A DNA stretch of 64,000 nt from Afipia sp. OHSU_II-C1 (lineage in GTDB: Bacteria; Pseudomonadota; Alphaproteobacteria; Rhizobiales; Xanthobacteraceae). The stretch is from assembly GCF_000497575.1 (NCBI RefSeq), contig NZ_APJI01000016.1:248001-312000 (forward strand). Direction: 5' to 3'. The translations under genes and the position numbers were made by a program. Below the pieces are notes generated by a model. That model was not told the origin of the DNA. It worked only from the letters and a program-made list of their open reading frames with translations, and ran no database searches. How positions within the stretch are numbered: position 1 is the stretch's first letter; each line of letters starts with the position of its first letter. Positions 38,614 to 53,306 of this stretch are shown here, piece by piece.

Positions 38614-38687
38614 TGGGGAATGGTGTAACGGTAGCACAACAGACTCTGACTCTGTTTGTCTAGGTTCGAATCCTAGTTCCCCAGCCA
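38614..38687 (+). tRNA. tRNA-Gln (anticodon CTG)
   Basis: The cloverleaf can be folded by eye. Acceptor TGGGGAA (38614-38620) pairs with TTCCCCA (38677-38683). The anticodon stem ACAGA/TCTGT surrounds the loop CTCTGAC with anticodon CTG, and the T arm CTAGG-TTCGAAT-CCTAG is perfect. The discriminator is G and CCA is encoded at 38685-38687. Confidence 0.95.
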
Positions 38688-39147
38688 GCCAGTCCGATAA
38701 TCAGAACGTCCTCCTTATGCGGTTGATAGGCCGGCCAACAGCGGGCTTTTTCGACGTCGCAGGGTCTCTGCGCGGGCAAGATTCGAAATTTTCGAGCGAA
38801 AATTCCCCACAGTCTCCGCTTAACCATTGAATAATTCCCGTTTTCTAGAGACGTCGTTTGGAGACCGGAGAATAATCCACTGCGCTGTGACCGGGCAGTG
38901 TAGAGCGCGCCATGGCCAGACCAGTCGGGCGCCGTCCTCGCAGTTCGAATCCCATTCCCTCCGCCACCCAATTTTCGCAAAATCTATTAGACGCCTCCAA
39001 AGAGTGAGAAATCCCCCTTATTTGCAGACTCACTCTTACCTTCAATTGTCAGTGGACTGGCGATTGCCCTACAAAAATGCCTTGAGACGCGAAATTCTCT
39101 GAAGCCTAGGACCGCGGTACGGTTTGTACGAAGACCAAAGACTGCTC
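38688..39147. other. Spacer downstream of tRNA-Gln without recognisable genes
   Basis: About 460 bp with lower GC stretches than the flanks and only short open frames. It includes the tRNA-end-like sequence at 38938-38966. It appears to be part of a decayed insertion next to tRNA-Gln. Confidence 0.45.
38938..38966 (+). other. Degenerate tRNA 3'-end-like sequence
   Basis: A T-loop TTCGAAT (38944-38950) followed by CCCATTCCCTCCGCCA resembles the 3' end of a tRNA-Ser, but the T stem (GCAG against CCCAT) does not pair and no 5' half is present. It may be a relic attachment sequence left by an integrated element. Confidence 0.3.
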
Positions 39148-39570
39148 TTACGGCCACTTTTCTCGTAAGCAGGTGTCAGCAGTTTTGAATTCAGTTGGGT
39201 ATCGCACACCTTTCTTGGTGGAGTAGCTCGGACCCATACGGTTATCGCGGTCGTCGAACAGTTTGCCCATCAGCAGCGCGCCGCTCTCTGATCGTCGATT
39301 TTTTCGCGACACTGAGTTGGCGGCCAGTTTCGTCTGAACGGCATCAAACGTAGCTTTTGCAATGATCCGCGGATGTTCTCCCGGATGCCATTTGTCTTTG
39401 TGAGGAACCTCGCCAATATAAAGTCGGTTGTTCAATAGGTAGGCCAGGGGACCGTAGGTAAAGGGCGATGTCACGCGAGCGTCTGACTTTTTTGCTTTTT
39501 TTGTTCTTGACCGGATGCCCTTTGCATCGAGGTTCAAGCACCAGCAAGCCGAAACTGCCGAGTTCAGCGG
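39148..39570 (-). pseudogene. Serine recombinase remnant (frameshifted and truncated)
   Basis: The reverse strand reads PFTYGPLAYLLNNRLYIGEV then HPGEHPRIIAKATFDAVQ and LMGKLFDDRDNRMGPSYSTK, which is the recombinase (PF07508) and start of the zinc-ribbon part of large serine recombinases. The preceding homologous segment ELGSFGLLVL is in another frame from DAKGIRSRTKK, so a 1-base frameshift lies at about 39530. The N-terminal catalytic resolvase domain and the C-terminus are missing. It cannot be active. Confidence 0.75.
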
Positions 39571-40161: not shown

Positions 40162-41613
40162 ATGCCGACACAAAATGCCACCGCATCTTCATTCGTGCCT
40201 TCGAACGACGCGAACTATTCGGTCCATGATGATGTCGCCTATCTTTCGGCCGTTGAGCTGGTGGAGCTTTACCGGACGAAGAAGCTTTCGCCGGTCGATC
40301 TTACCCGCTTGATTCTCGATCGCATCCACAAGATTGATCCGCACATAAATGCCTTCGCATTGCTTGATGCAGAGGCCGCACTTGCGTCGGCAAAGGAATC
40401 CGAGAAACGATGGTCGCGGGGCGAGCCGCTGGGCCTCGTGGATGGCGTCCCTGTCGCGCTGAAAGATCTTGTCCTGGCGAAGGGATGGCCAACGCTACGC
40501 GGCAGCCGGGCTGTCGATCCGGATCAGGACTGGACCGAGGACTCTCCGGCAACGGCCCGTTTGCGTGAGCACGGGGCTGTCTTGCTCGGCAAGACAACGA
40601 CATCGGAGTTTGGCTGGAAAGGACTTGGCGACAGCCTTCTAACGGGCATCACACGTAATCCATGGAATGTGGCGCACACGCCGGGCGGCAGCAGCGGTGG
40701 TTCCGGTGCGGCGGCGGCCATCGGGTTCGGGCCGCTTCATGTCGCGACGGATGGCGGCGGCTCCACGCGGCTTCCTGCCGCGCACAGCGGCGCCTTTGGC
40801 TTTAAGCAGACGTTCGGGCGCGTGCCCGTCTATCCTCCATCGCAGAATGGAACGCTCTTTCACGTCACGCCGCTGACGCGTTCGGTGCGCGATGCGGCAT
40901 TGCTGCTCGATGTGATCGCGCGTCAGGATCTGAGGGACTGGAATGCGTTGCCGCCCGCGGACATTTCATGGAGCAAGGGACTTGAGGACGGGATCAAAGG
41001 CCTTCGCATCGCCTACAGTCCCGCTCTCGGATATGCGCAGGTTGATCCCGAAATCGAGAAGATCGTTGCTGACGCGGTCAAGGTGTTCGCTGATCATGGA
41101 GCGATCGTCGAACTGGTCGATCCCGGAATCGAAGATCCGCTTCCGATCTTTCTGACGTTCTGGCAAGCCGGGGCTGCAAAGCTGCTTGCAAGCTTCGCCC
41201 CGGATCGGCGCGCGTTGACCGAGCCAGGCCTTCAGGCTGCCGCCGAGCAGGGGTGCGCGATCGATGCCGTAACCTATCTTCAGGCTGTAGATCGGCGTGA
41301 GGCGCTTGGCCGCCACTTCAGCCAGTTTCATCAGACATGGGATCTTCTTATCACGCCAACAACGGCGCACCCGGCATCTGCCATCAATGCGTCGCAGGCT
41401 GATCTTGCTGATCGGCCCATCCGTTCGCCGTTTACGTATCCTTTCAACCTGACCCAGCAACCGGCGGCTTCCATATCCGCCGGACTGACGAAGGCAGGTT
41501 TGCCTGTCGGACTCCAGATCATCGGAGCAAAGTTCGCGGATGCGACGGTGCTGCGCGCAGCTCGTGCCTTTGAAATCGCCCGTCCGCTGGCAAGGCCCAC
41601 TAATCCATCATGA
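40162..41613 (+). CDS. Amidase signature family enzyme
   Basis: A 483-residue amidase with the Ser-cisSer-Lys catalytic pattern: Lys in GVPVALKDLVLAKG, the Gly/Ser-rich TPGGSSGGSGAAAAIG, and the nucleophile region TDGGGSTRLPAAHSGAFGFK. It hydrolyses a C-N amide bond to acid and ammonia or amine; the substrate is unknown. It is the first gene of a run of overlapping genes, and its stop overlaps the start of the second amidase (ATGA). A GGAAG site lies just before the ATG. Confidence 0.87.
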   Translation: MPTQNATASSFVPSNDANYSVHDDVAYLSAVELVELYRTKKLSPVDLTRLILDRIHKIDPHINAFALLDAEAALASAKESEKRWSRGEPLGLVDGVPVALKDLVLAKGWPTLRGSRAVDPDQDWTEDSPATARLREHGAVLLGKTTTSEFGWKGLGDSLLTGITRNPWNVAHTPGGSSGGSGAAAAIGFGPLHVATDGGGSTRLPAAHSGAFGFKQTFGRVPVYPPSQNGTLFHVTPLTRSVRDAALLLDVIARQDLRDWNALPPADISWSKGLEDGIKGLRIAYSPALGYAQVDPEIEKIVADAVKVFADHGAIVELVDPGIEDPLPIFLTFWQAGAAKLLASFAPDRRALTEPGLQAAAEQGCAIDAVTYLQAVDRREALGRHFSQFHQTWDLLITPTTAHPASAINASQADLADRPIRSPFTYPFNLTQQPAASISAGLTKAGLPVGLQIIGAKFADATVLRAARAFEIARPLARPTNPS

Positions 41614-43052
41614 GCGGCAGGTCTTCAACTATAGAGCTCGACCTTCCACGCCTGACTAGGGCCTACAAGGATGGATCACTCGCGCCGTCAACTGTTGTCG
41701 AAGCGATCTTCGACGTCATCGCGCAACGGGGAGACGACGGTGTCTGGATCAGTCTGGTTGGCCGGGATGCTGCCCTGTCGCGAGCGCGGGAGCTCGAAGC
41801 TCTGAATGCACTGGAGCAGGGAGGTTTGCCGCTGTGGGGAGTTCCGTTCAGTGTCAAGGATTGTATTGATGTGGCCGGTTTGCCGACGACATCGGCCTGC
41901 CCGGACTATTCCTATGTGCCCGCTGAGAGCAGTCCATCGGTCGAGCGGCTTCTGGCCGCGGGCGCCATTCTTATCGGCAAGACCAACATGGATCAGTTCG
42001 CCACCGGCGTTGTGGGCGTAAGATCGCCCTATGGCGTGGCGCAGAATCCCTTCAACGCGGATTACATCCCGGGCGGATCAAGCTCGGGTGCGGCGGTGTC
42101 GGTCGCAGAAGGTCTCGTGAGCTTTGCATTGGGGACGGATACCGGGGGGTCGGGCCGTGTACCGGCGGCTTTCAACAATGTTGTGGGCTTGAAACCGACG
42201 CGGGGCCTGATCAGCCGCGTTGGGACGGTGTCGGCCTGCAGGTCCATCGAAACGATTTCGGTGTTCGCGCTGACGGTGACAGATGCACAGGCGGCGTTCG
42301 ATGTCATCCGCGCCCATGACAGGCGGGACCCCTTTTCGCGGGCGGTGGCATTGCAGCCATCTGGCCATTTCCCCAGCCGCTTTCGCTTTGGCGTGCCTGC
42401 TGCGCGCCAGCTGGATTTCTTTGGAGATGTCGAAGCCGCGAAACAGTTCGATGGCGCAGTCCGTCGTCTTGAGCGGCTCGGCGGGACGCGTGTTGAGGTC
42501 GATTTTACGCCGTTCCTCGAAATCAATGACATGCTGTTTCGTGGCCCATGGCTTGCGGAGCGTTACGGCGCGCTGAAAGAATTTCTCGAACAGCGGGCAG
42601 ACTCGGTTCTGCCGGTGACTCGCGAGATTCTTCTTGGCGGCGCGCGCATATCGGGTGCGGATGTGTTTGCCGGCCAGCAGCGGCTTAACACGCTCAAGCG
42701 CGGGGTCGACGATCTCTGGCACGATATCGACGTGTTTATCGTACCGACCACGGGGACCATTTATAAGATCTCCGAGCTTGAAGCCGATCCGGTCAATCTC
42801 AATACCCGCATCGGCAGATACACAACATTCGCAAATCTCGCAGATCTGTCCGCCCTGGCTGTGCCCAATGGTTTTTTGCCAAATGGTCTTCCGCAGGGCG
42901 TATCGCTCCTCGGCCCGGCTTTTGCTGACAACAAGATTGCCAGCCTCGCTGACAGGCTTCACCGCGACGGCGGCTTACCTCTCGGCGCGCGGGCTGTCCG
43001 GCACCTCGCAGAATCTCAATATCCAGAAACACAAACGGAGTTGGTGACTTGA
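41610..43052 (+). CDS. Allophanate hydrolase-like amidase (amidase domain only)
   Basis: A 480-residue amidase-signature protein. Lys is in GVPFSVKDCIDVAGLPT, the Ser motif is IPGGSSSGAAVSVAEG, and the nucleophile region is LGTDTGGSGRVPAAFNNVVG followed by LKPTRG. These sequences, especially GSGRVPAAFNN, match the amidase domain of AtzF-type allophanate hydrolases, which split allophanate toward ammonia and CO2. The C-terminal domain of about 120 residues of full AtzF is absent. No urea carboxylase is present nearby. The substrate may be a related ureido compound. Confidence 0.8.
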   Translation: MSGRSSTIELDLPRLTRAYKDGSLAPSTVVEAIFDVIAQRGDDGVWISLVGRDAALSRARELEALNALEQGGLPLWGVPFSVKDCIDVAGLPTTSACPDYSYVPAESSPSVERLLAAGAILIGKTNMDQFATGVVGVRSPYGVAQNPFNADYIPGGSSSGAAVSVAEGLVSFALGTDTGGSGRVPAAFNNVVGLKPTRGLISRVGTVSACRSIETISVFALTVTDAQAAFDVIRAHDRRDPFSRAVALQPSGHFPSRFRFGVPAARQLDFFGDVEAAKQFDGAVRRLERLGGTRVEVDFTPFLEINDMLFRGPWLAERYGALKEFLEQRADSVLPVTREILLGGARISGADVFAGQQRLNTLKRGVDDLWHDIDVFIVPTTGTIYKISELEADPVNLNTRIGRYTTFANLADLSALAVPNGFLPNGLPQGVSLLGPAFADNKIASLADRLHRDGGLPLGARAVRHLAESQYPETQTELVT

Positions 43053-44035
43053 AGAAGGCGTATGGAATGGGGCATTCGGCCAATCGGTTCGCAAAATCCA
43101 CTGCGGTGTTGCTGGCAGCGCTGCTGGGCGCGGTCTCAACGCATGCACGTGCCCAGGATATCACAATCGGCGAAGGTCTGGCCGTTGGTTGGGGACAGTT
43201 CTTCGTTGCCGATCAATCCAAGGGTTGGGAGAAGCAAGGGCTGTCGCCCAAGGTCACGACGTTCCCCAGCGGCCGGCTTGTGCTGGATGCGCTGGTCGGA
43301 GGCGGGGTGGTGATCGGCACCGCTGCGGAAACGCCGGTGCTGTTTGCAAATCTCAATGGATTGCCCGTCCGCGTGATCGGGACGTTGAACCGGCAGGAGT
43401 CATTCGATCTCGTTGCCAAAACCGACATCAAAACCATCAAGGACATCAAGGGTCGCAAGATTGGCTACTCACAGGGCACGAATGCCCATTACTACCTTTC
43501 CAAGGTGCTGAAGGAAGCAAACCTGACATTTGCCGATATTACCGCCGTCAGTCTCAATCCCGGTGATTTCGTCGGCAGCCTGTCGAGCGGCGCCATTGAT
43601 GGCTTCATCTGGACTGAGCCGCACATCTCGCTTGCGGTAAAGCAAGGCGGCGGCAAGTTTCATGTAATTCGATCGCCCGGACTTTATGTCGGCTTCTCAA
43701 CCATTATCGCCCTGCAATCGACGATTGACAGCAAGCCGGAGCTTCTCGTGAAGGCGCTCAGGGCCCTGGTCGATGCCGATGAGGTCATCAAGAAAGATCC
43801 CAATGCAGCGGCAAACCTGATTGCCGAACGGATCAAGATCGACCCGGAAATCGTCCGCAACTTCCTGCCTCGGACGAAGTTCGATCTTGCAAACAACAAG
43901 CAGGATCTGGTCGCTGAATTCGAAGCGCAGGCGAAGTGGGCGATCGAAAACAAGCTGGTACGCCCGGATGTCAAGGTGCCTGACTTCAACACCATTGTGG
44001 TCACGACCCTGCTGGATCAGGCCCGCAAGAAATAG
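43049..44035 (+). CDS. ABC transporter substrate-binding protein (NMT1/SsuA/TauA type), first transporter
   Basis: A 328-residue exported binding protein with a signal peptide (AVLLAALLGAVSTHARAQ) and the fold of the nitrate/sulfonate/taurine group (LPVRVIGTLNRQESFDLVAK, IKGRKIGYSQGTNAHYYL). The best start is a TTG at 43049 that overlaps the stop of the amidase gene and follows GGAG at 43037-43040; an ATG at 43067 is the alternative. The overlap ties the transporter to the two amidases in one operon. Confidence 0.87.
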   Translation: MKKAYGMGHSANRFAKSTAVLLAALLGAVSTHARAQDITIGEGLAVGWGQFFVADQSKGWEKQGLSPKVTTFPSGRLVLDALVGGGVVIGTAAETPVLFANLNGLPVRVIGTLNRQESFDLVAKTDIKTIKDIKGRKIGYSQGTNAHYYLSKVLKEANLTFADITAVSLNPGDFVGSLSSGAIDGFIWTEPHISLAVKQGGGKFHVIRSPGLYVGFSTIIALQSTIDSKPELLVKALRALVDADEVIKKDPNAAANLIAERIKIDPEIVRNFLPRTKFDLANNKQDLVAEFEAQAKWAIENKLVRPDVKVPDFNTIVVTTLLDQARKK

Positions 44036-44059
44036 CTGCTGTCTAGCTGGAGTCACCGC

Positions 44060-44857
44060 ATGAATGCACGAGTTGATATTCCGGCCACGGAGGCGGCAGA
44101 GCGCCCGCTGATTGCCTGCAACGATCTTGGCCACGTCTATGATTCAGGTCGTGGCAAGACCTTTGCCTTGGGCAACGTGTCGCTCACTATTGCGCCCGGA
44201 GAATTTGTCTGTGTACTCGGGCCGAGCGGATGCGGCAAGACCACGCTGCTGAATATCCTCGCGGGGTTCGTCGCTCCGTCTCATGGCGAGGTATTTGTCA
44301 ATGATCGCCGCGTGACGGGGCCAAGTTCGGAGCGTGGCGTTGTCTTTCAGGATTATTCGCTGTTTCCATGGCTGACAGCGCAGGCCAATGTGGAGTTCGG
44401 GCTTCGCATGGCGGGCTATCCGGCTTCCAGGCGCCGGGGCGTGGCAGAAGAGTTGCTCCGGCAGGTTGGATTGCCCGATGCCGGAGCGAAATATCCGTTC
44501 GAACTGTCCGGAGGGATGAAGCAGCGAGTGGCGATCGCACGCGCACTGGCAACAAGGCCAGCTCTGCTGCTGATGGATGAACCTTTCGCTGCACTTGACG
44601 CGATGACGCGCAATTCACTGCAGTCAAAACTGATCGATATTCAGAAGCAGGGCGCGCAGACGATTCTGTTTGTTACGCACAACATTGCGGAAGCCCTTGT
44701 TCTCGGCAGCCGTCTCATTGTGATGTCCCCCAATCCCGGGCGCGTGGTGGAGGACATTCCAATCCAGCTCAAGCGGCCGCGGCGGCGGACCTCGGCGGCT
44801 TTCAATGAGCTTTATGATCGCGTGGCACGCGCCATCGGTCTCGACACCGCGGAGTGA
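44060..44857 (+). CDS. ABC transporter ATP-binding protein (SsuB/TauB type)
   Basis: A 265-residue ATPase with Walker A GPSGCGKTTLLN, the Q-loop in FQDYSLFPWLTAQANVEFGL, signature [15 protein letters not shown] and Walker B ALLLMDEPFAALDA. It powers the permease encoded 3 bp downstream. Family membership indicates import of a small anion such as a sulfonate, nitrate or a pyrimidine-like compound. Confidence 0.9.
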   Translation: MNARVDIPATEAAERPLIACNDLGHVYDSGRGKTFALGNVSLTIAPGEFVCVLGPSGCGKTTLLNILAGFVAPSHGEVFVNDRRVTGPSSERGVVFQDYSLFPWLTAQANVEFGLRMAGYPASRRRGVAEELLRQVGLPDAGAKYPFELSGGMKQRVAIARALATRPALLLMDEPFAALDAMTRNSLQSKLIDIQKQGAQTILFVTHNIAEALVLGSRLIVMSPNPGRVVEDIPIQLKRPRRRTSAAFNELYDRVARAIGLDTAE

Positions 44858-44860
44858 GGA

Positions 44861-45679
44861 ATGACATTCCAACCGAGCTACCGCGCAGCTGCCGGTATTG
44901 CCGGAACACTGGCTTTCTTCGGCGCATGGGAGGTGCTGAGCCATAGCGGCCTCGTCAATGAGGTGATGCTTCCTGCGCCGACCACCATCATCAAGGCGGG
45001 CTGGTCACTCCTGACGTCCGGTGAGCTGCAGCGGCATTTTGGGGCAAGCCTGTTCAGGTCGATTGCCGGATTTGTCAGCGGCTCGGTCTTTGCGATTCTG
45101 CTCGGTGTCGCAATGGCGCAGTTGCCGTGGCTGCATGCGACGATCAATCCGCTGGTGCAGATGTTCCGTGCGATCCCTGCGCTCGCGTTCGTGCCGCTTG
45201 CGGTTTTCTGGTTCGGCATTGGAGAGACATCCAAGATATTCCTGATCGCATGGGGCGTATTCTTTCCGGTCTGGGTGAACACATATATCGGCGTGCGCGA
45301 CACGAATCCGCTGCTGGGGAGGGCGGCGGCCAGTCTCGGCGCGAGCGGGTGGCGGAACTTCACGTTTGTCGTCATCCCGGGAGCGCTGCCCTTCATTATC
45401 GCGGGATTGCGTGTAAGTCTCGCGGTTGCGCTGGTTCTGCTTGTGGCGTCCGAGCTGGCAGGCGCCGCCTTCGGTGTCGGCTACCTCATTCAGATGTCCC
45501 AGCAGGTCTTCCGTGTCGACTACATGTTCGTCGGCCTCATCGTTCTCGGACTGATGGGGGTCGTCGCGGACTTTCTCTTTGAAGGCGCGATCCGGCGTCT
45601 GTTGCCCTGGTATGGCGCTGAAAAAGCGCTTCGCGGACGACCGGGCCAGACAGATAGAAAGGCTGGGCAGGCCGGCTAG
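44861..45679 (+). CDS. ABC transporter permease (SsuC/TauC type)
   Basis: A 272-residue membrane protein with about six helices and the BPD permease loop with conserved Gly in RAAASLGASGWRNFTFVVIP and GALPFIIAGLRVSLAVA. It follows the ATPase gene after 3 bp. Together with the two genes before it, it forms a complete importer. Confidence 0.9.
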   Translation: MTFQPSYRAAAGIAGTLAFFGAWEVLSHSGLVNEVMLPAPTTIIKAGWSLLTSGELQRHFGASLFRSIAGFVSGSVFAILLGVAMAQLPWLHATINPLVQMFRAIPALAFVPLAVFWFGIGETSKIFLIAWGVFFPVWVNTYIGVRDTNPLLGRAAASLGASGWRNFTFVVIPGALPFIIAGLRVSLAVALVLLVASELAGAAFGVGYLIQMSQQVFRVDYMFVGLIVLGLMGVVADFLFEGAIRRLLPWYGAEKALRGRPGQTDRKAGQAG

Positions 45680-45754
45680 GCCGAAAGCAATTTATTGCGA
45701 GCCTGTCATGGCAACCGCGGAATACAACGCAGCGAAGCCCGCAAAGGAATCGAC

Positions 45755-46048
45755 ATGCAACCAGCAGAAATCGCGTTGATCGAGGATCAGACTGCTCTGA
45801 CCATCACATGGCGGGATGGCGAAGTCAGCCGTCTCGATGCGGATGTGTTGCGGCGCGCAAGCCGTGCAGCCAGCGAAGTCCGCCGGCAGTCGGATGGAGT
45901 AGGATTGAATTTGCCGGACGGCGTTCGCGTCGATGCGGTTCAGCTTGTCGGATCGTATGCTCTACGCCTGTTTTTCTCTGATGGACACGACCGCGGCATC
46001 TATCCGTGGGCCTACCTGCGTGAGCTGTCCACGCCATCGGCGGCTTAG
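45755..46048 (+). CDS. DUF971 (GBBH-like N-terminal domain) protein
   Basis: A 97-residue protein made of one DUF971/PF06155 domain, recognised from ALTITWRDGEVSRLDADVLR, VGSYALRLFFSDGHDRGIYP and WAYLREL. The domain occurs at the N-terminus of gamma-butyrobetaine hydroxylase and as a stand-alone protein near Fe-S assembly genes. Its position, 10 bp before the flavoprotein gene, suggests a partner of the redox pair. The start ATG 45755 is preceded by AAAGGAA. Confidence 0.85.
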   Translation: MQPAEIALIEDQTALTITWRDGEVSRLDADVLRRASRAASEVRRQSDGVGLNLPDGVRVDAVQLVGSYALRLFFSDGHDRGIYPWAYLRELSTPSAA

Positions 46049-46058
46049 GAATCATACG

Positions 46059-47795
46059 ATGGACGAAATCAGAAACGGCTTATCCGAGATCGAATGCGAC
46101 GTGCTGGTGATAGGCGGCGGAACTGCCGGTCCGATGGCGGCGTACAAGGCGAAGCGGCGCAATCCAGGTGCGCGTGTAATTTTGCTCGAGAAAGCCAACG
46201 TAAAGCGTTCCGGCGCCATCGCCATGGGCATGGACGGGCTGAACAATGCAGTTGTGCCCGGCTTTGCGACACCGGAGCAATACACAAAGGAAATCACCAT
46301 CGCCAACGATGGAATTTGCGATCAGGCGCCCGTTTATAAATATGCTTCACGATGCTTTGACGTGATTCAGGAACTGGATAGCTTTGGCATCAAGTTCCAG
46401 AAGACTGAGAACGGCGATTTTGACGTAAAGAAAGTTCACCACCTTGGCTCATATGTCTTGCCGATGCCGAACGGGGACACCGTCAAAAAAGCTCTATACC
46501 GGCAGCTTCGGCGCGAACGGGTGCTGATCTCCAATCGGTATATGGCCACCCGCCTGCTGACGGCGAAAGATGGACGAATCGCCGGTGCGATTGCCGTGAA
46601 TACGCGAACGGCGGAATTTCTGGTGCTCAGGGCCAAGGCAGTCATTCTGTGCACAGGCGCTGCAGGTCGCCTTGGTCTTCCGCAGTCGGGCTATCTGTGG
46701 GGCACCTATGAGAATGCGACGAACTCCGGCGATGGATACGCCATGGCCTATCACGCGGGAGCAGGCCTTGCGAATATCGAATGCTATCAGATTAATCCGC
46801 TGATCAAGGACTACAACGGGCCGGCTTGCGCCTATGTGGCAGGCCCTTTCGGCGCCTACACAGCGAATAGCGAAGGTAATCGCTTCATCGAATGCGATTA
46901 CTGGTCCGGTCAGATGATGCAGGAGTTCTACAACGAGTTGCAGTCAGGGAAGGGACCGGTCTTCCTGAAGCTCAATCATCTGCACAGCGATACGATCGGC
47001 CAGATTGAGGCTGTACTGCACAAGGTCGAGCGGCCGTCGCGCGGGCGTTTCCATGAGAGCCGTGGAACGGACTATCGCGACCGCATGATCGAAATGCATA
47101 TTTCAGAAATCGGTTTGTGTTCGGGGCACAGCGCGTCGGGCGTGTTTGTCGACGAGTTCGCGCGGACCACGGTGACGGGTCTTTATGCCGCGGGCGACAT
47201 GGCGAGCGTGCCGCACAACTACATGCTAGGTGCGTTCACCAATGGAGTGGTTGCCGGTGAGCATGCTATCGACTTTACCGCCGATGTCGATCTTCCGGAG
47301 TATGACCGTAGCGAGGTTGCGCGCGAGCAGGAGCGTGTCCTTGCGCCGACACATCGCGACGACGGAATTCCACCCAACCAGCTTGAATACAAGGCCAGGC
47401 GCCTTGTGAATGACTATCTGCAGCCGCCAAAGGTGACCGCGAAGATGCAGATCGGTCAGGCGCGGCTCGCGGAGGTGCGTGATGATCTCGAAAACAGGAT
47501 GGTTGCGCGCGATTCGCATGAATTGATGCGGGCGCTGGAAGTCTCATCCATTCTGGATTGCTCGGACATGGCAGCCTTCGCGTCCCTGTTCAGGACTGAA
47601 AGCCGCTGGGGGCTTTATCATCAGCGCGTCGATTATCCCGAAAAAAATGATGATGAGTGGTTCTCCCACAGTATTCTTCGCAAACAGAACGAATGTATGA
47701 CTGCCGAGAAACGCGCCGTCGCGCCATATATCGTGCCGATCGCGGAGACAGAACGCTCGGCCTACAGCCGTCAGCGCATTCGTCAGCACGCCTGA
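46059..47795 (+). CDS. FAD-dependent AprA-like flavoprotein (APS reductase alpha/fumarate reductase family)
   Basis: A 578-residue flavoprotein with the FAD-binding VLVIGGGTAGPMAA (GGGTAG at residues 19-24) and EKANVKRSGAIAMGMDGLN, closest to the AprA subunit of dissimilatory adenylylsulfate reductase. A capping domain and GLYAAGDMASVPHNYMLGAF follow, then an AprA-like C-terminal region ending in AVAPYIVP. It lacks the usual succinate/fumarate dehydrogenase active-site context. The adjacent ferredoxin is the probable electron partner. No sulfate adenylyltransferase or dsr genes are nearby, so dissimilatory sulfate reduction is unlikely. Confidence 0.83.
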   Translation: MDEIRNGLSEIECDVLVIGGGTAGPMAAYKAKRRNPGARVILLEKANVKRSGAIAMGMDGLNNAVVPGFATPEQYTKEITIANDGICDQAPVYKYASRCFDVIQELDSFGIKFQKTENGDFDVKKVHHLGSYVLPMPNGDTVKKALYRQLRRERVLISNRYMATRLLTAKDGRIAGAIAVNTRTAEFLVLRAKAVILCTGAAGRLGLPQSGYLWGTYENATNSGDGYAMAYHAGAGLANIECYQINPLIKDYNGPACAYVAGPFGAYTANSEGNRFIECDYWSGQMMQEFYNELQSGKGPVFLKLNHLHSDTIGQIEAVLHKVERPSRGRFHESRGTDYRDRMIEMHISEIGLCSGHSASGVFVDEFARTTVTGLYAAGDMASVPHNYMLGAFTNGVVAGEHAIDFTADVDLPEYDRSEVAREQERVLAPTHRDDGIPPNQLEYKARRLVNDYLQPPKVTAKMQIGQARLAEVRDDLENRMVARDSHELMRALEVSSILDCSDMAAFASLFRTESRWGLYHQRVDYPEKNDDEWFSHSILRKQNECMTAEKRAVAPYIVPIAETERSAYSRQRIRQHA

Positions 47796-47808
47796 TTTTG
47801 GAGTTGTC

Positions 47809-48042
47809 ATGCCTCTTGCTCTTTCACCCACAACCGTTCCGGTCGTTGTCGACGACGCAAAGTGCATTGCCGACAAAGGCTGCACAGTCTGTGTTGACGT
47901 CTGTCCGCTGGATGTGTTGCGCATCAGTGATCTGACCGGAAAGGCCTACATGAAATATGATGAATGCTGGTACTGCATGCCATGCGAGACCGATTGCCCG
48001 ACGGGCGCGGTGACGGTCAACATTCCATATCTGCTGCGCTGA
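47809..48042 (+). CDS. AprB-like 2x[4Fe-4S] ferredoxin
   Basis: A 77-residue protein with eight cysteines in two cluster motifs. One set is Cys19, Cys25, Cys28 and Cys32 (C-x5-C-x2-C-x3-C, in CIADKGCTVCVDVCP). The other is Cys53, Cys56, Cys59 and Cys63 (CWYCMPCETDCP). The spacing of the first motif and the CWxCxxC sequence resemble the N-terminal half of AprB, but the long AprB tail that wraps AprA is missing. It lies 13 bp after the AprA-like gene and presumably carries electrons to or from it. Confidence 0.87.
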   Translation: MPLALSPTTVPVVVDDAKCIADKGCTVCVDVCPLDVLRISDLTGKAYMKYDECWYCMPCETDCPTGAVTVNIPYLLR

Positions 48043-48043
48043 C

Positions 48044-49006
48044 ATGTCTGCGTTCGAGCCGTTTGAGTCGTTCGGCGATCTCGAGGAGGTTGCCAAGGGT
48101 TTGACAAGTCCAGATTCGTCTGTCCGCCGGCTGGCCGTCATCGAGATTGCCGAGACGGCAAGTCCGGATGCGGTGGAGTATCTCGCGTCTGCGATCTCTG
48201 ATGCTGCATCCGATGTCAGATTTCAGGCGGTTCGTGCACTGGGCGAGTTTGATGGACCGATCGTCGCGGAGGCTCTGGTGAAAGGGATCGTGGACTGCGA
48301 TCCGGATGTCGCCGGTGCATCGGCCGAAAGCCTTGCGGAAATCCGTGATCCGGAAGCTGGCCCGGCGCTCCTGCCGCTTGTCTCGCACGATTCAGCCTTT
48401 GTGCGGGCGTCAATCTTTCGGTCGCTGAAGGCGCTTCGCATTCCGGAGTCGTTGGGGCCAGCCGTCGCGGCGCTGGGCGATCCGGACCCCGCTGTCCGAG
48501 TCCAGTCGGTCGGTGTAATCGGCTATTTGAAGCGTGTTGAATCCCTGCCGTCGCTGATCGGGGCTGCGCGCGATGCCAATCCGGATGTGCGACTCGCTGC
48601 GATCAATGCGTTGGCCTTTGCGCGCAACGCCGCCGCTGCTCAAGCTGCATCGGATGCGCTGAAGGATTCGGAATGGCAGGTGCGGGCTGCCGCGGCCGAG
48701 GCAATTGCGAAAATCGGACTGACATCTGCGGTATCTGCTGTACGCACCGTTCTAAGCGACGACTATTGGCAAGTCCGGCAGAAGGCCCTGCAGTCGCTGG
48801 GCAAACTGAAGGCACGGGATGCGGTTGCCGATATTGTGCCTCTACTCGATGCGCAATTGCCGTCGTTGCGCAAGGAAGCTGCGGCTGCGTTGGGCGACAT
48901 CGCGGACCCGCGCGCACGCGAGGCATTGACAGCAAGGGTCACAGATCCAGATCCGGATGTGCGTAAAACGATCGTCTGGGCTCTCGGTCAATTGAACGCG
49001 GCGTAA
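48044..49006 (+). CDS. HEAT-repeat (PBS lyase-type) protein
   Basis: A 320-residue protein made of about nine helical repeats of roughly 31 residues with the pattern DPDPAVRVQSVGVIGYLKR, DANPDVRLAAINALAFARN and DPDPDVRKTIVWALGQL. Such alpha-solenoids are scaffolds or maturation factors. The start is 1 bp after the ferredoxin stop, so it belongs to the AprAB-like unit. It may assemble or tether the redox complex. Confidence 0.85.
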   Translation: MSAFEPFESFGDLEEVAKGLTSPDSSVRRLAVIEIAETASPDAVEYLASAISDAASDVRFQAVRALGEFDGPIVAEALVKGIVDCDPDVAGASAESLAEIRDPEAGPALLPLVSHDSAFVRASIFRSLKALRIPESLGPAVAALGDPDPAVRVQSVGVIGYLKRVESLPSLIGAARDANPDVRLAAINALAFARNAAAAQAASDALKDSEWQVRAAAAEAIAKIGLTSAVSAVRTVLSDDYWQVRQKALQSLGKLKARDAVADIVPLLDAQLPSLRKEAAAALGDIADPRAREALTARVTDPDPDVRKTIVWALGQLNAA

Positions 49007-49029
49007 CCTAGGAAGCGCCGCCGCAGACT

Positions 49030-49722
49030 CTATTCCTTGAAAAGAATCTGTTCGAGTAGATCGATGCGCTCGATGCGTATGACGCTGCCCTCGATCGAAA
49101 CGATTCGCTTGGCCTGGAACCGCTTCAGCATCATGGTAACCCATTGCCGCGTCGAGCCGACCATGGCTGCGATCTGGTCGTGCGTTACCTTGCGATTAAT
49201 GACGGTCGCCTCTCCATCCTGTGAGCCGTACAATTTCGAGAGATTGAGCAGATATTGTGCAAGGCGCTCGATTACAGAGCGGGTACCCAGCATCTGCGCC
49301 ATGGACGAATAGCATTTACCCTTGGCAACGAGACCGTCGATTAGAGCCATTGCAAAGCTGGGCATATTTGCCAGCAGCCTCTGAAGGGTCGCGCTGGAGA
49401 GAAGCATGATTTCGCAGTCATCTACAGCGACGCCAGACCACATGTGGACGCCGCCACCTGAAATCTCAGGGCCCCCAATGAAGTGTCCGGGTGTCCAGTA
49501 AGCCAAGGTAATCTCGCGGCCGGAAGGCGCGGTATAAAAAACCCGAACCTGGCCGCGTTCGATAATGAAGATGCCGTCGTGGTTTTCGCCTTGGTTGAAG
49601 ACGCTTTCGCCGGGCTGGAACGCGATCTGACGACCCAGCTCGCGGATGTGTGCTTTCTCCTCTTTCGACAGGCGATCCTGAAAGTGCGCGCCGATATTCA
49701 GATCGTCTATCGATTCGCTCAT
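49030..49722 (-). CDS. Crp/Fnr family transcriptional regulator
   Basis: A cyclic-nucleotide-binding-fold regulator of 230 residues from ATG 49720-49722 (MSESIDDLNIGAHF). The sensor domain contains FQPGESVFNQGENHDGIFII, and the C-terminal HTH reads VTHDQIAAMVGSTRQWVTMM. The N-terminal cysteine set of FNR is absent, so it does not bind an oxygen-sensing cluster in that manner. In-frame starts at 49917 or 49956 would add an N-terminal extension of 65-78 residues. It converges on the HEAT gene and is divergent from the second transporter, so it probably controls the cluster. Confidence 0.85.
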   Translation of the reverse strand: MSESIDDLNIGAHFQDRLSKEEKAHIRELGRQIAFQPGESVFNQGENHDGIFIIERGQVRVFYTAPSGREITLAYWTPGHFIGGPEISGGGVHMWSGVAVDDCEIMLLSSATLQRLLANMPSFAMALIDGLVAKGKCYSSMAQMLGTRSVIERLAQYLLNLSKLYGSQDGEATVINRKVTHDQIAAMVGSTRQWVTMMLKRFQAKRIVSIEGSVIRIERIDLLEQILFKE

Positions 49723-50257
49723 GAACAGGGCGGATATTTCAGGCGTGTCCGCAGGTGTGCTCCGGCCTGGATTCCTATTGAGCGAGTCGTCGCGAAGCGT
49801 CCGGATTGACCCCGCCTCAGGCGTTAGATTCCGGGACCAGTCGGCGCGAAACGGTGCTTGCGCTGTGTTGAAATAGGGAGGTGCACTCGTTTTCTGAATT
49901 GATTTGAGCGTAGTCATGACCCGTTCATTCGTGATAGCGCGCCGTCGACAGGACACGAGCTAAGTGCGTTGCGAAAGCAAAGTCTACTCTTTTGATTCAT
50001 TTTAATGATAGTTGGAAAAGGTCATGCGCGAACCACGTGCGGGCTGGAATGACTAATCTGCGCGGATGAAACAGGCGGTAAAAAATTCTCAACCTGATTT
50101 GCTGCCAATGCGTCTTTCGATGAGTGCTCAGCTCTTCTGCTTCAATGCGGGCAAGTAATTGCTTCTGCGCGACAAGCTGTTGATCCAGAGTTTTGCCGGA
50201 CAATTCGCTTTGTGTTGGCCGCAATGTGCCGCCGACCATCCATGCAGGGGCCGAGCA
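49723..50257. promoter_or_regulatory. Divergent intergenic region between the Crp/Fnr gene and the second transporter
   Basis: About 535 bp if the short form of the regulator is correct, otherwise 340 bp (49918-50257). It is AT-richer than its surroundings at 49980-50110 and should contain promoters for both directions. I could not identify a clear palindrome. Confidence 0.45.
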
Positions 50258-51670
50258 ATGAATCGTTTCAGGTTGTCAGGTATTATTGTCGCAATGGCCG
50301 TCGGGCTTTCCAGCGCGGCGGATGCAGACGTCATTCGTGTCGCAGTCGGAACCCAGGATACGACGATCAACTGTGCAACTGGTGGACTGCTCATTCGCGA
50401 GTTGAAACTGCTTGAAAAGCATCTTCCGCGTGACGGGAAATACACAGGCGTCACCTATGATATTCAATGGAAGAACTTCACCAGCGGAGCACCACTCACC
50501 AATGAAATGGTGGCGGGCAAGCTGGATTTCGGCGCGATGGCGGATTTTCCGGGCTCGCTGAACGGCGTCGCTTTTCAGAAAGCCGGACGCCGGAGCCTGT
50601 TTATCGCCACGCTGTCAGGCAGCACGAAAGGCAGCGGCAACGGTATCGTCGTCCCCACGAACTCGCCTGTGCAGTCGATCGCAGAGCTCAAGGGCAAGAC
50701 CATCTCCGTGCCGTTTGCGTCGACGTCGCACGGCATGCTGCTGCGGGCGATCAAGGCGCAGGGCTGGAATCCTGAAACCGATGTCAACATTATCACGCAG
50801 GCGCCTGAGGTTGCCGGGCCGGCCCTGCAGGCCAGCAAGATCGAAGCGCATGCGGACTTCGTGCCCTTCGCCGAGCTATTCCCATGGCGCGGCTTTGCCC
50901 GGAAAATTTTCGACGGTTCACAGGCTAATGCGCCCACGTTTCACGGTGGTCTTGTCGATGCCGAATACGCTGAGAAGTATCCCGAGATCGTTGTTGCATA
51001 CCTTCGCGCCGCGCTCGAAGCAGACAGCCTGATCGCTGCTGAGCCGGAGAAGTACAGCGAGCTGATTTCGCGGGTGACCGGGATTGAGCCCGAGGTGAAC
51101 TACCTGTTTCACGGACCGCTGGGTCTGCAGACGCGTGACATGACATGGAAGCCGGAATATCGTCAGGCCGTGCAGACCTCGATTGAGACCTTCAAGTTCC
51201 TCAAGCGCGCGGACAGCGATCTCGATATCAACAAGTTCGTGACCGACAAGTATATCCGCACGGCGTTGTCACAGGCTGGACGCGACTATGATGCCGAGCT
51301 GAAGAATTATTCTCAGCTTCAGCTGAAGGCCAAGGACGCTGTGACCGGCGCTGATATCGTGGATGCAACTCGTCTCGCGCAGATCTGGGTCAAGGGCGAG
51401 CCTGTCGTCCGGCACTATGCATCGCCCGAGAATGCATTGAAGGCGCTTGCTGCAATCGAAAAAGAGGGCAAGAGCGTACGCGTTGTCTATGCACAGGATC
51501 GCGAAAGCGGCATCAAGCTGTTCGCGCAGCAAGCCTGGTTCGTACGCGCATCCAATGGAGAACTGAGTGCATTCCTATCGAAGGGCGTGGCGGAAGACTG
51601 GGCGAAAGCCAAGGGCGGACAGGTTGTTGATTATGCGGGTGCGAGGGAACCCCTCGTTGTGAGCCGCTGA
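50258..51670 (+). CDS. ABC transporter substrate-binding protein with NosL-like C-terminal extension, second transporter
   Basis: A 470-residue exported protein, unusually long for the family. Residues 25-340 form an NMT1/SsuA-type binding domain (VAVGTQDTTINCATGGLLIR, NGIVVPTNSPVQSIAELKGK). From about residue 355 an extra region follows, with AWFVRASNGELSAFLSKGVA and AKAKGGQVVDYAGA, whose order of elements resembles NosL, a periplasmic copper-binding chaperone fold. I start at ATG 50258, giving the signal peptide ending in SSAADA. Its permease gene overlaps the stop codon. Confidence 0.82.
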   Translation: MNRFRLSGIIVAMAVGLSSAADADVIRVAVGTQDTTINCATGGLLIRELKLLEKHLPRDGKYTGVTYDIQWKNFTSGAPLTNEMVAGKLDFGAMADFPGSLNGVAFQKAGRRSLFIATLSGSTKGSGNGIVVPTNSPVQSIAELKGKTISVPFASTSHGMLLRAIKAQGWNPETDVNIITQAPEVAGPALQASKIEAHADFVPFAELFPWRGFARKIFDGSQANAPTFHGGLVDAEYAEKYPEIVVAYLRAALEADSLIAAEPEKYSELISRVTGIEPEVNYLFHGPLGLQTRDMTWKPEYRQAVQTSIETFKFLKRADSDLDINKFVTDKYIRTALSQAGRDYDAELKNYSQLQLKAKDAVTGADIVDATRLAQIWVKGEPVVRHYASPENALKALAAIEKEGKSVRVVYAQDRESGIKLFAQQAWFVRASNGELSAFLSKGVAEDWAKAKGGQVVDYAGAREPLVVSR

Positions 51671-52473
51671 TGGTGGAGAAGTCTGGTGACGGCGGGTCGC
51701 GCGGCACCCGTCTTCTAATACGGATTGCATCGATCGCCGCCTGTATCGCGCTATGGCAGCTGGCTTCGTCGTTGCGGCTCAATCTGGGTGTTGTGACGTT
51801 CCGCAATGTCCCGCCGCCGACGGAGGTTTTCCAGGCCATATTCGCCTTGCTGCGCTCGCCAAAGCTGCTGTCCCATATTAGCAGTAGTCTTTGGCGCGTT
51901 TTTGCAGGCTACGGCGCAGCGGCATTGTCTGGCATCATGCTCGGATTCGCAATCGGTCAGTCGCGCTTTGCCAGTGATGTCTTGCTGCCTCCGCTGGAAC
52001 TGCTTCGGCCGATTCCAGCCGTAGCGTGGATACCGCTGTCCATCCTGATGTTTCCTTCATCGGAACTGTCGATGATCTTTATCACGTTCATCGGAGCGCT
52101 GTTTCCGATTATTCTCAACACGGTTCATGGCGTGGCGAATGTCGATCGCCGTCTTGTGGCGTCGGCGCGAAGTCTTGGAGGGACTAGCAGAGCAATCCTG
52201 CGTGAGATCGTTCTGCCGGGGGCGGCGCCAAGTATCGTGACAGGTCTTGCCATAGGCATGGGTACATCGTGGTTTTGCCTTGTGACTGCTGAAATGATCT
52301 CCGGCCAGTTCGGTGTCGGCTACTACACCTGGGAAGCTTATACGCTGCAAAATTATGCCGACATTATCGTGGGCATGCTGGTTATCGGCTTGTTTGGTAT
52401 GGGCAGCAGCTGGCTTTTGACAACATCCGGCCATGTTCTGATGCCCTGGCGGCAGCCTGCAGTCGCGCGATGA
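51670..52473 (+). CDS. ABC transporter permease (SsuC/TauC type), second transporter
   Basis: A 267-residue membrane permease with about six helices and the conserved loop ASARSLGGTSRAILREIVLP followed by GAAPSIVTGLAIG. The start ATG overlaps the stop of the binding-protein gene by one base, and its stop overlaps the start of the ATPase gene (ATGA). It is a paralogue of the permease at 44861. Confidence 0.9.
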   Translation: MVEKSGDGGSRGTRLLIRIASIAACIALWQLASSLRLNLGVVTFRNVPPPTEVFQAIFALLRSPKLLSHISSSLWRVFAGYGAAALSGIMLGFAIGQSRFASDVLLPPLELLRPIPAVAWIPLSILMFPSSELSMIFITFIGALFPIILNTVHGVANVDRRLVASARSLGGTSRAILREIVLPGAAPSIVTGLAIGMGTSWFCLVTAEMISGQFGVGYYTWEAYTLQNYADIIVGMLVIGLFGMGSSWLLTTSGHVLMPWRQPAVAR

Positions 52474-53306
52474 GCGTTGCGCACATCCTGACACAGGCCG
52501 CACCACCGGGCCGGATCGAGGTCGATCAGGTATCGATCTCACTTGGACATGGCGCGGATGCCTTTGAAGCGGTGCGAGAGCTCGATTTCTCCGTTGCTCC
52601 CGGAGAACTGATCTGCATTCTCGGGCCCTCCGGTTGCGGAAAGTCGACGCTTCTCGGAGCGCTGGCCGGACATCTGTCGATCAGCGCTGGGAGCCTGACT
52701 GTTGACGGTGAGACGGTCGCAGGTCCAAGTCCCCATCGTGGCATGGTCTTCCAGCAGCACACGTTGTTCCCGTGGAAGAAAGTCCGCGAGAATGTCGCGT
52801 TCGGTCCAAAGATGCGCGGGATCAGCAAGAACGAGCGGTTGCGATCAGCGGAGGAAATTCTTGCACTGGTCGGCCTGTCGGGTTTCGAGGGATTTTATCC
52901 TTCGCAACTGTCCGGTGGGATGCAGCAACGTGTCGAGATTGCGCGGGTTTTGATCAACCGGCCGTATGTGTTGCTGATGGATGAGCCGTTCGGTGCGCTT
53001 GATGCGCAAACGCGTTCCATGATGCACGGAATTCTGCTCGACATCTGGACCAAAATTCCGACCACCACGTTGTTCGTTACCCATGACATCGATGAGGCCT
53101 TGTTTCTGGCTGATCGGGTCATTGTGATGAGTGCACGGCCCGGCAGGGTGATCGAAGACATTCGTGTGCCGTTCGCGCGGCCACGGCGTCCGGAACTGGT
53201 GGCGGAAATCGAGTTTACTCGCTTGAAGCGTCACTTCATTGAGTTACTTAGAATTCCCAATGCGTCGGAGCCGTTGCCGCGGTTGAATCCGCTCGGCGAG
53301 GTCTGA
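52470..53306 (+). CDS. ABC transporter ATP-binding protein (SsuB/TauB type), second transporter
   Basis: A 278-residue ATPase with Walker A GPSGCGKSTLLGAL, FQQHTLFPWKKVRENVAFG at the Q-loop, signature LSGGMQQRVEIARVL and Walker B VLLMDEPFGALDAQT. It completes the second importer. The C-terminal tail of about 40 residues is longer than in the first ATPase. Confidence 0.9.
   Translation: MSVAHILTQAAPPGRIEVDQVSISLGHGADAFEAVRELDFSVAPGELICILGPSGCGKSTLLGALAGHLSISAGSLTVDGETVAGPSPHRGMVFQQHTLFPWKKVRENVAFGPKMRGISKNERLRSAEEILALVGLSGFEGFYPSQLSGGMQQRVEIARVLINRPYVLLMDEPFGALDAQTRSMMHGILLDIWTKIPTTTLFVTHDIDEALFLADRVIVMSARPGRVIEDIRVPFARPRRPELVAEIEFTRLKRHFIELLRIPNASEPLPRLNPLGEV

Follow-up and report, generated by a model that had tools for sequence, protein, structure and literature searches.

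Known bacterial routes of desulfonation run through the oxygenases TauD and SsuD or through glycyl-radical enzymes. The accessible parts of one report add a nitrogenase-like enzyme that desulfonates isethionate (PMC11423573). Here we describe a cluster of 13 genes at positions 40162-53306 of a 64,000-nucleotide stretch of the Afipia sp. OHSU_II-C1 genome (contig NZ_APJI01000016.1, positions 248,001 to 312,000; this whole stretch is called the window below), in which two amidases, two ATP-binding cassette (ABC) importers and a Crp/Fnr-family regulator accompany a redox pair that resembles adenosine 5'-phosphosulfate (APS) reductase. Our favoured explanation, to which we assign a probability of roughly 0.4 on the basis of sequence comparisons, is that this cassette would take up a small sulfonate-type anion and, with NADPH as the source of electrons, cleave it reductively to sulfite, the amidases freeing that anion from an amide or ureide.

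Several described systems resemble parts of the cluster. The dissimilatory APS reductase AprAB and the 3'-phosphoadenosine 5'-phosphosulfate (PAPS) reductase of Methanothermococcus thermolithotrophicus, MtPAPSR (structure 8a8o), share with the redox pair a superfamily, a flavin adenine dinucleotide (FAD) subunit and a ferredoxin-like subunit with eight cysteines and two [4Fe-4S] clusters (PMC10322725, accessible parts), whereas the pair described here has Leu in place of an Arg and Tyr in place of a Trp, a beta subunit of 77 residues, HEAT and DUF971 proteins alongside and an ABC importer of its own. Like the binding proteins of TauABC and SsuABC, that of the second importer (SBP2) keeps the residues that grip the sulfonate, and an SsuD gene is found close to the redox genes in Hyphomicrobium; however, the residues that bind the amine are replaced, a NosL-like C-terminus is added, and neither TauD nor SsuD is encoded among the 13 genes. 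Amidase-signature enzymes are also paired with a TauA-type importer on acesulfame plasmids of Bosea and Chelatococcus, where, according to the accessible parts of PMC10413263, a distant importer of this type, amidases and a TauE-like exporter serve an N-sulfonate substrate. The Afipia cluster differs from these in having an AprAB-like enzyme and no metallo-beta-lactamase (MBL) sulfatase among its 13 genes, the amidases having been compared by description only. The second amidase, AmiB, aligns with the allophanate hydrolase AtzF across the amidase domain (431 bits to 4cp8), but it is without the C-terminal domain, has Phe for the Tyr of the LLYxGPW motif and coexists with a full-length paralogue at C15 of the same genome. 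Finally, the flavoprotein-HEAT fusion PRK13800 (NF010374), which in Tsukamurella joins AprA-like and HEAT parts in a single chain, corresponds in the window to two genes with the AprB-like gene in between.

A thirteen-gene unit and its recurrent core

The genes of the cluster, with their positions in the window, are the following.

40162..41613, + strand: AmiA, an amidase-signature enzyme (PRK06169/NF004815 type)
41610..43052, + strand: AmiB, a single-domain allophanate-hydrolase-like amidase in which the motif Tyr is Phe
43049..44035, + strand: SBP1, an SsuA/NMT1-type substrate-binding protein (importer 1)
44060..44857, + strand: ATP1, an ABC ATPase (importer 1)
44861..45679, + strand: PERM1, an ABC permease (importer 1)
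45755..46048 (ATG at 45755), + strand: a DUF971 protein (GBBH-like N-terminal domain)
46059..47795, + strand: the AprA-like FAD subunit (NF006131)
47809..48042, + strand: the AprB-like ferredoxin subunit, 77 residues, eight Cys, two [4Fe-4S] clusters predicted
48044..49006, + strand: a HEAT-repeat partner
49030..49722, - strand: a Crp/Fnr-family regulator, divergent from importer 2
50258..51670 (ATG at 50258), + strand: SBP2, a TauA/SsuA-type binding protein with a NosL-like C-terminal domain
51670..52473, + strand: PERM2, an ABC permease (importer 2), an open reading frame (ORF) assigned by its conservation beside SBP2
52470..53306, + strand: ATP2, an ABC ATPase (importer 2), an ORF assigned in the same way

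These 13 genes behave as one unit that is intact in three genomes. In a second genome of the genus, G415, all of them are kept in the same order (locus L252), and a single DNA alignment (13,121 nt, 77%) spans window positions 40231-53296 and ends there; the rest of that locus (16.8 kb) gave no other alignment to the window at the same setting. Across all 13 genes, agreement between the window and G415 at codon positions 1, 2 and 3 is 0.76-0.97, 0.81-1.0 and 0.44-0.56, respectively, the matches are free of stops (13/13) and protein identity ranges from 68 to 99%. Low agreement at third positions together with high agreement at the first two indicates purifying selection on each gene, amidases included, and points to long-term maintenance of every gene by selection. 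The full set of 13, in unchanged order, is also present in Tardiphaga robiniae (L044, the locus also recorded as G289/L034), with DNA matches that cover 40231-49734 and 50332-53187 of the window. Within the genus, the AprA family is present in 4 of 29 genomes, the window's own genome counted.

The first-pass annotation had placed the named genes, their directions and their gaps correctly to within about one base, the largest gap being 75 nt rather than 76. AmiA and AmiB overlap by 4 nt, as do AmiB and SBP1 provided that the TTG at 43049 is the SBP1 start; the spacers that follow measure 24 nt (SBP1-ATP1), 3 nt (ATP1-PERM1), 75 nt (PERM1-DUF971), 10 nt (DUF971-AprA-like), 13 nt (AprA-like-AprB-like) and 1 nt (AprB-like-HEAT), and the genes of importer 2 overlap by 1-4 nt. 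The Crp/Fnr start at 49722 is our choice, its reading frame being open up to 49956. On inspection of the window protein, the N-terminal Fe-S cysteines of an FNR-type oxygen sensor are absent; a GGxHxW stretch is conserved among these regulators, its His missing in one relative (every third of 48 rows was displayed). The contig carries another DUF971 gene beyond the window, at a distance of about 65 kb (G000:C16:229034-229288).

The wider distribution separates a core from an accessory layer. At least 514 stretches encode an AprA-like relative, and the named loci are the best 80 of these, strongly weighted to Bradyrhizobium; their gene content was scored by tblastn (E <= 1e-6, coverage > 30%, overlap filter on the recount). 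HEAT was found in 79 of the 80, AprB in 76, DUF971 and SBP2 in 72 each, PERM2 and ATP2 in 71 each and the Crp/Fnr gene in 69, as against 9 for SBP1, 7 for AmiB-type amidases and 1 for AmiA. Where the 10-kb flanks are complete (62 loci), only L060 and L061, both from Hyphomicrobium, lack SBP2. A phylum sample gave much the same picture: 21 of 398 genomes have the AprA family, and once the window is set aside, the remaining 20 neighbourhoods have AprB, HEAT and DUF971 in 20/20, importer 2 in 18/20 and both amidases in 1/20. AprA-like matches also occur in 51 plasmid records, and the 16 plasmid loci examined in detail, from alpha-, beta- and gammaproteobacteria, Acidithiobacillus, four cyanobacteria and the actinobacterium Tsukamurella, all have AprB and HEAT (16/16), mostly have a complete importer 2 (13/16) and seldom an AmiA-type amidase (2/16). 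The widely recurrent core is thus the AprA-like, AprB-like, HEAT and DUF971 genes with importer 2, usually joined in alphaproteobacteria by the Crp/Fnr gene, and the amidases and importer 1 form an accessory layer outside the genomes that bear the full cluster.

These counts bear directly on the earlier view that all the genes form one set for a small anion containing S and/or N. The unit in three genomes and the wide co-occurrence of the redox genes with importer 2 agree with that view, whereas the amidases and importer 1 prove to be accessory; the neighbourhood comparison that had been proposed as its check upheld co-occurrence for the core and gave a mixed answer for the amidases. The anion probably contains S and, by way of the amidases, N.

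The cassette is probably a patchily distributed, mobile pathway, and the Afipia cluster is likely a mobile island. G+C content beside the cluster is lower (0.546 at 38-40 kb), but a value of 0.548 is also seen at 52-54 kb. Just before the cluster lie a serine-recombinase remnant and a tRNA-Gln gene (window 38614-39537), a possible integration site; the cluster starts about 1.5 kb past the tRNA gene and 0.6 kb past the remnant. On plasmid pMLa of Mesorhizobium japonicum (L129 13233-14342), an IS110 element stands between HEAT and Crp/Fnr, and the region displayed contains no importer 2.

The redox pair, the importers and their neighbours

The AprA-like protein exceeds the cut-off of PRK08275/NF006131 (1068 > 587 bits) and falls far under those for dissimilatory AprA (TIGR02061, 152 vs 641.75; NF005331, 279 vs 557) and for SdhA/FrdA (TIGR01812, 163 vs 567; TIGR01816, 118 vs 727). 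Its nearest solved relatives are the alpha subunit of the Methanothermococcus PAPS reductase (8a8o) and Archaeoglobus AprA, and the fold and cofactor set of the APS/PAPS reductase superfamily is present: an FAD_binding_2 domain, a C-terminal domain and a beta subunit whose eight-Cys, two-[4Fe-4S] pattern recurs in 26 of 26 AprB-like ORFs examined (25 without a duplicate locus). The active site is another matter. Leu248, aligned with the substrate-binding Arg265 that 8a8o keeps, is Leu in 115/115 rows (110 distinct), and Tyr217, aligned with the Trp in contact with FAD, is Tyr in 115/115; Asn62 and His357 are invariant in the same rows. We take Arg265 and Trp234 to be the Archaeoglobus labels, the position of Arg265 having been counted in the structure-relative alignment. 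In MtPAPSR the Trp beside FAD is Trp206 (PMC10322725, accessible parts). The 110 distinct AprA rows and the 70 distinct SBP2 rows remain once 5 and 2 duplicates, respectively, are set aside; among the 95 loci whose ORFs were clustered (below), 2 are duplicates.

Identities as an APS/PAPS reductase, as a fumarate reductase or succinate dehydrogenase and as an L-aspartate oxidase were all rejected on model scores and residues. Because Arg is replaced by Leu and Trp by Tyr in all 115 rows, the AprA-like protein is a sister enzyme of the APS/PAPS reductases that most likely acts on another substrate, and the AprAB-like label given at first pass is, judging by the Leu at the APS-binding position, not to be read as APS chemistry.

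The partners of the pair can be assigned candidate roles. The fusion of HEAT to the AprA-like protein in Tsukamurella (NF010374, 1568 > 1196 bits), and the four cyanobacterial plasmid loci whose clusters are annotated with an Mrp/NBP35 Fe-S carrier but with no DUF971 gene, suggest that HEAT is a bound partner and that DUF971 is an aid to Fe-S assembly. In Hyphomicrobium L060, L061 and L065, HEAT directly follows the AprA-like gene and no AprB-like gene was detected. In Nostoc L126 (10695-13876), the AprA-like and AprB-like genes are separated by genes for two HAD hydrolases, for a methyltransferase and for GNAT and VOC proteins, and on plasmid pTcM1 of Acidithiobacillus caldus (L125 10574-14035) an FAD-dependent oxidoreductase of 1153 residues is encoded in the cluster directly 3' of FdxA.

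SBP2 aligns with both SsuA and TauA, whose sulfonate and amine ligand residues, with main-chain contacts at Gly79 and Thr132, are described in the accessible parts of PMC6906117. SBP2 proteins keep the residue at TauA position Gln30 in 71 of 72 rows (with one gap), and those at Gly61 and at the Ser before Thr132 in all 72 (70 rows distinct); at Gly79 they have Gly in 59 and Ala in 13, and at Thr132, Thr in 14 and Ala in 58. Glu106 and Asp205, which hold the amine of taurine, are replaced by Asn and His (71/72 each), and taurine was rejected as the ligand for this reason. The best reading is that SBP2 binds a sulfonate-type anion whose other end is unlike that of taurine. Both binding proteins score under the cut-off of the SsuA model TIGR01728 (163.5 bits), SBP1 at 139 and SBP2 at 113.5, and no plasmid relative of SBP1 was found at 1e-30. 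The NosL-like C-terminus of SBP2 scores 20.0 bits in the window, under the Pfam cut-off of 24, and 25.1, 25.4 and 15.0 in relatives, one further relative being without a match. Three cyanobacterial clusters contain LysR regulators with an SBP2-like C-terminal domain (L127 6388-8424, L130 6661-8661, L135 7646-9661), so that the same ligand fold serves outside and inside the cell there, which fits an imported ligand that is sensed inside the cell.

For the 95 loci in which ORFs were called, the neighbours were grouped into clusters, and from each cluster one or two members were scanned. Ferredoxin-NADP reductases of the Fpr type occur in 48/95 loci (47 without duplicates; two members scanned), sulfate/sulfite exporters of the YeiH type in 32/95 (31 without duplicates; one member scanned) and ferredoxins of the FdxA type in 6/95 (one member scanned). 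In the 16 plasmid loci, fdxA is annotated in 2 and TauE/SafE, TSUP or YeiH in 5. The alkanesulfonate monooxygenase SsuD near the Hyphomicrobium core (L060) clears its cut-off with 612 > 518 bits. Taken together, the Fpr, YeiH/TauE and SsuD neighbours point to NADPH as the reductant, to sulfite among the products and to an organosulfonate setting. SCO1 (12), cytochrome c (9), PCuAC (6) and TlpA-type proteins (5) were also found among the 95 loci. At L053 (13798-20534) and similar loci, the genes of importer 2 are interleaved with those for TlpA, SCO1, PCuAC, a c-type cytochrome and a membrane-type protein that has no Pfam match (L053 17156-17872).

The two amidases

Both amidases keep the Lys and the Ser-rich signature motifs. 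Relatives of AmiA occur in 129 plasmid records, the best of them a Nostoc amidase inside an AprA-like cluster (56%); matches 3-4 are from Methylocystis, and the examined plasmid of that species has the amidase beside AprA. In Mesorhizobium AR07, AmiA- and AprA-like genes lie about 48 kb apart on one plasmid. A tree of 28 AmiA rows places the four AprA-linked amidases (window, Tardiphaga, Nostoc and Methylocystis), two of which are close kin, on one side of a branch with support of 93/96 (just below the star level), 92% of bootstrap trees and 0/500 label shuffles. With a distant AmiB outgroup, a single origin is recovered in only 65% of bootstraps (long-branch distortion). A second GNAT gene precedes the amidase of Nostoc L126, and the Methylocystis amidase (L131) also adjoins a GNAT gene.

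AmiB scores as an allophanate hydrolase (TIGR02713, 555 > 511; NF006043, 587 > 487), yet its motif reads MLFRGPW, and at 480 residues it has no C-terminal domain, most of the listed homologues lying in frames of about 600 residues. The Tyr of LLYxGPW is, we assume, a carboxylate ligand in allophanate hydrolase. AmiB may thus have ceased to act on allophanate. The Phe variant arose separately in the Bradyrhizobium type of AmiB, and it was rejected as a marker of AprA linkage, given two changes on the tree and AprA-linked forms that do not make one group. The Bradyrhizobium type adjoins the core in L078, L080, L094 and L107, and in L068 from another Nitrobacteraceae genome; its module of AmiB, importer and Crp/Fnr gene is found at a distance from the core as well (L242, L243 and L245). 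A single-domain AmiB that keeps the Tyr stands with a further importer next to the core in G012 (L240), so that in this genome and in four Bradyrhizobium loci an AmiB-type amidase and a further importer, complete or partial, lie beside the core. Amidases have thus become attached to the core more than once.

Proposed route and rival explanations

From these components we infer the electron flow, the product, the order of steps and the regulation as follows. Importer 2 would take up the sulfonate-type anion, and in the cytosol electrons would pass from NADPH by way of a ferredoxin-NADP reductase and FdxA to the FAD of the AprA-like subunit and the two [4Fe-4S] clusters of the AprB-like subunit. 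The enzyme would then split an S-X bond reductively and give off sulfite, plausibly via an FAD N5-sulfite adduct and with something other than a nucleotide as the leaving group; attack of FAD-N5 on sulfur with release of sulfite has been proposed for APS and PAPS reductases (PMC10322725, accessible parts). HEAT would be bound to the enzyme, and DUF971, or Mrp/NBP35, would aid Fe-S assembly. Importer 1 would bring in that anion in precursor form, as an amide or ureide, for AmiA and AmiB to hydrolyse and so feed the reductase, and the Crp/Fnr protein would control the whole set.

A bolder version, which we regard as a long shot, is that the AprAB-like/HEAT enzyme represents a new class, an oxygen-independent, NADPH-fed desulfonating reductase that would cleave N-S or C-S bonds in small sulfonates and would here complete the breakdown of an N-acyl or carbamoyl sulfamate. 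The amidases would liberate sulfamate, and the reductase would convert it to an amine or ammonia and sulfite. A sulfamate-type substrate is our guess because acesulfame plasmids show amidases and such importers handling N-sulfonates; acesulfame degraders themselves leave sulfamate unused (PMC10413263, accessible parts).

A number of observations weigh against the favoured route. Neither Fpr, FdxA nor a sulfite exporter is encoded among the 13 genes of the window, the genome elsewhere offering three Fpr-like matches (all under the cut-off), two YeiH genes and eight TauE genes; and no more than roughly one locus in two has an Fpr-type gene beside the core, and one in three an exporter. An unstabilised carbon is a poor leaving group. 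The NosL-like, SCO1, PCuAC, TlpA and cytochrome c partners hint at copper or periplasmic redox chemistry, on which our model is silent. Acidithiobacillus caldus, a sulfur oxidiser, has the core on a plasmid, which means that a need for sulfur cannot by itself account for the cassette. No AprB was seen in 4 of the 80 loci, three of them from Hyphomicrobium. Under the rule used, no palindromic operator is shared by the regions upstream of AmiA, DUF971 and SBP2. Outside the linked cases, an AprA-like gene was found near AmiA relatives in 0/20 genome loci (43-55% identity), 0/4 plasmid loci and 0/1 short, end-cut contig.

Some of these points lend weight to the view that AmiA, AmiB and importer 1 serve a separate pathway, for example the use of a ureide as a nitrogen source, and merely adjoin the AprAB core and are inherited with it. 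AmiA occurs in only 1 and AmiB-type amidases in only 7 of the 80 core loci, the Bradyrhizobium module is found off-core as well, and AmiB scores as an allophanate hydrolase. However, the AprA-linked AmiA proteins of distant taxa cluster in the tree, AmiB-type amidases with a further importer stand beside the core in G012 and Bradyrhizobium, AmiB has lost the motif Tyr and the C-terminal domain while a full-length paralogue remains in the genome, and the 13 genes stay together in three genomes. We consider a separate pathway unlikely, yet a serious contender. The redox pair itself might be a plain assimilatory APS or PAPS reductase, as its nearest solved relatives are, and to this we give almost no credence, in view of model scores far under the cut-offs, the loss of the substrate Arg and of the FAD-contact Trp in every row and the cluster's own sulfonate-type importer. 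Two PF01507 (CysH/CysD-type) genes in the genome also make such a role less needed.

The remaining alternatives concern the direction and the purpose of the chemistry. The enzyme could work oxidatively, so that sulfite or a sulfinate is oxidised or a sulfo-adduct formed, with electrons passing to ferredoxin/NADP or cytochrome c and the product exported by YeiH/TauE. Cytochrome c in 9/95 and SCO1 in 12/95 loci, together with the presence of the core in Acidithiobacillus, would suit this direction, whereas Fpr usually carries electrons from NADPH to ferredoxin and a dedicated sulfonate-type importer makes more sense for a substrate than for sulfite that arises inside the cell. Reversibility is described for dissimilatory APS reductases, but MtPAPSR, the nearest solved relative, is without a measurable reverse reaction (both from the accessible parts of PMC10322725), and on balance we hold the oxidative direction to be improbable. 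We consider it decidedly improbable that the importer carries a copper-bound or copper-binding ligand in support of copper-enzyme maturation, with the AprAB-like enzyme freeing the metal or sulfur. The NosL-like end of SBP2 was matched in 4 of 5 fragments (two above the cut-off, the window's below it), and SCO1, PCuAC and TlpA-type proteins occur in 12, 6 and 5 of the 95 loci; yet such copper-chaperone partners were seen solely in a subset of alphaproteobacterial loci and not in the window, and the ligand site of SBP2 resembles those of sulfonate binders.

In the openly accessible literature we found no description of this assembly or of the substrate of its enzyme, and the accessible parts of PMC8557817 and PMC10708946 do not describe the cluster. 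Its parts belong to known families, the assembly appears to be new, and it is a realistic prospect that the enzyme represents a new class. If our favoured explanation is true, organosulfur turnover would gain a route through a flavin/[4Fe-4S] reductase that shares its ancestry with APS reductases and is served by a dedicated importer. Genome-based surveys of sulfur metabolism may overlook the AprA-like enzyme, since annotated plasmid records name it a "fumarate reductase/succinate dehydrogenase flavoprotein", or may take it for AprA.

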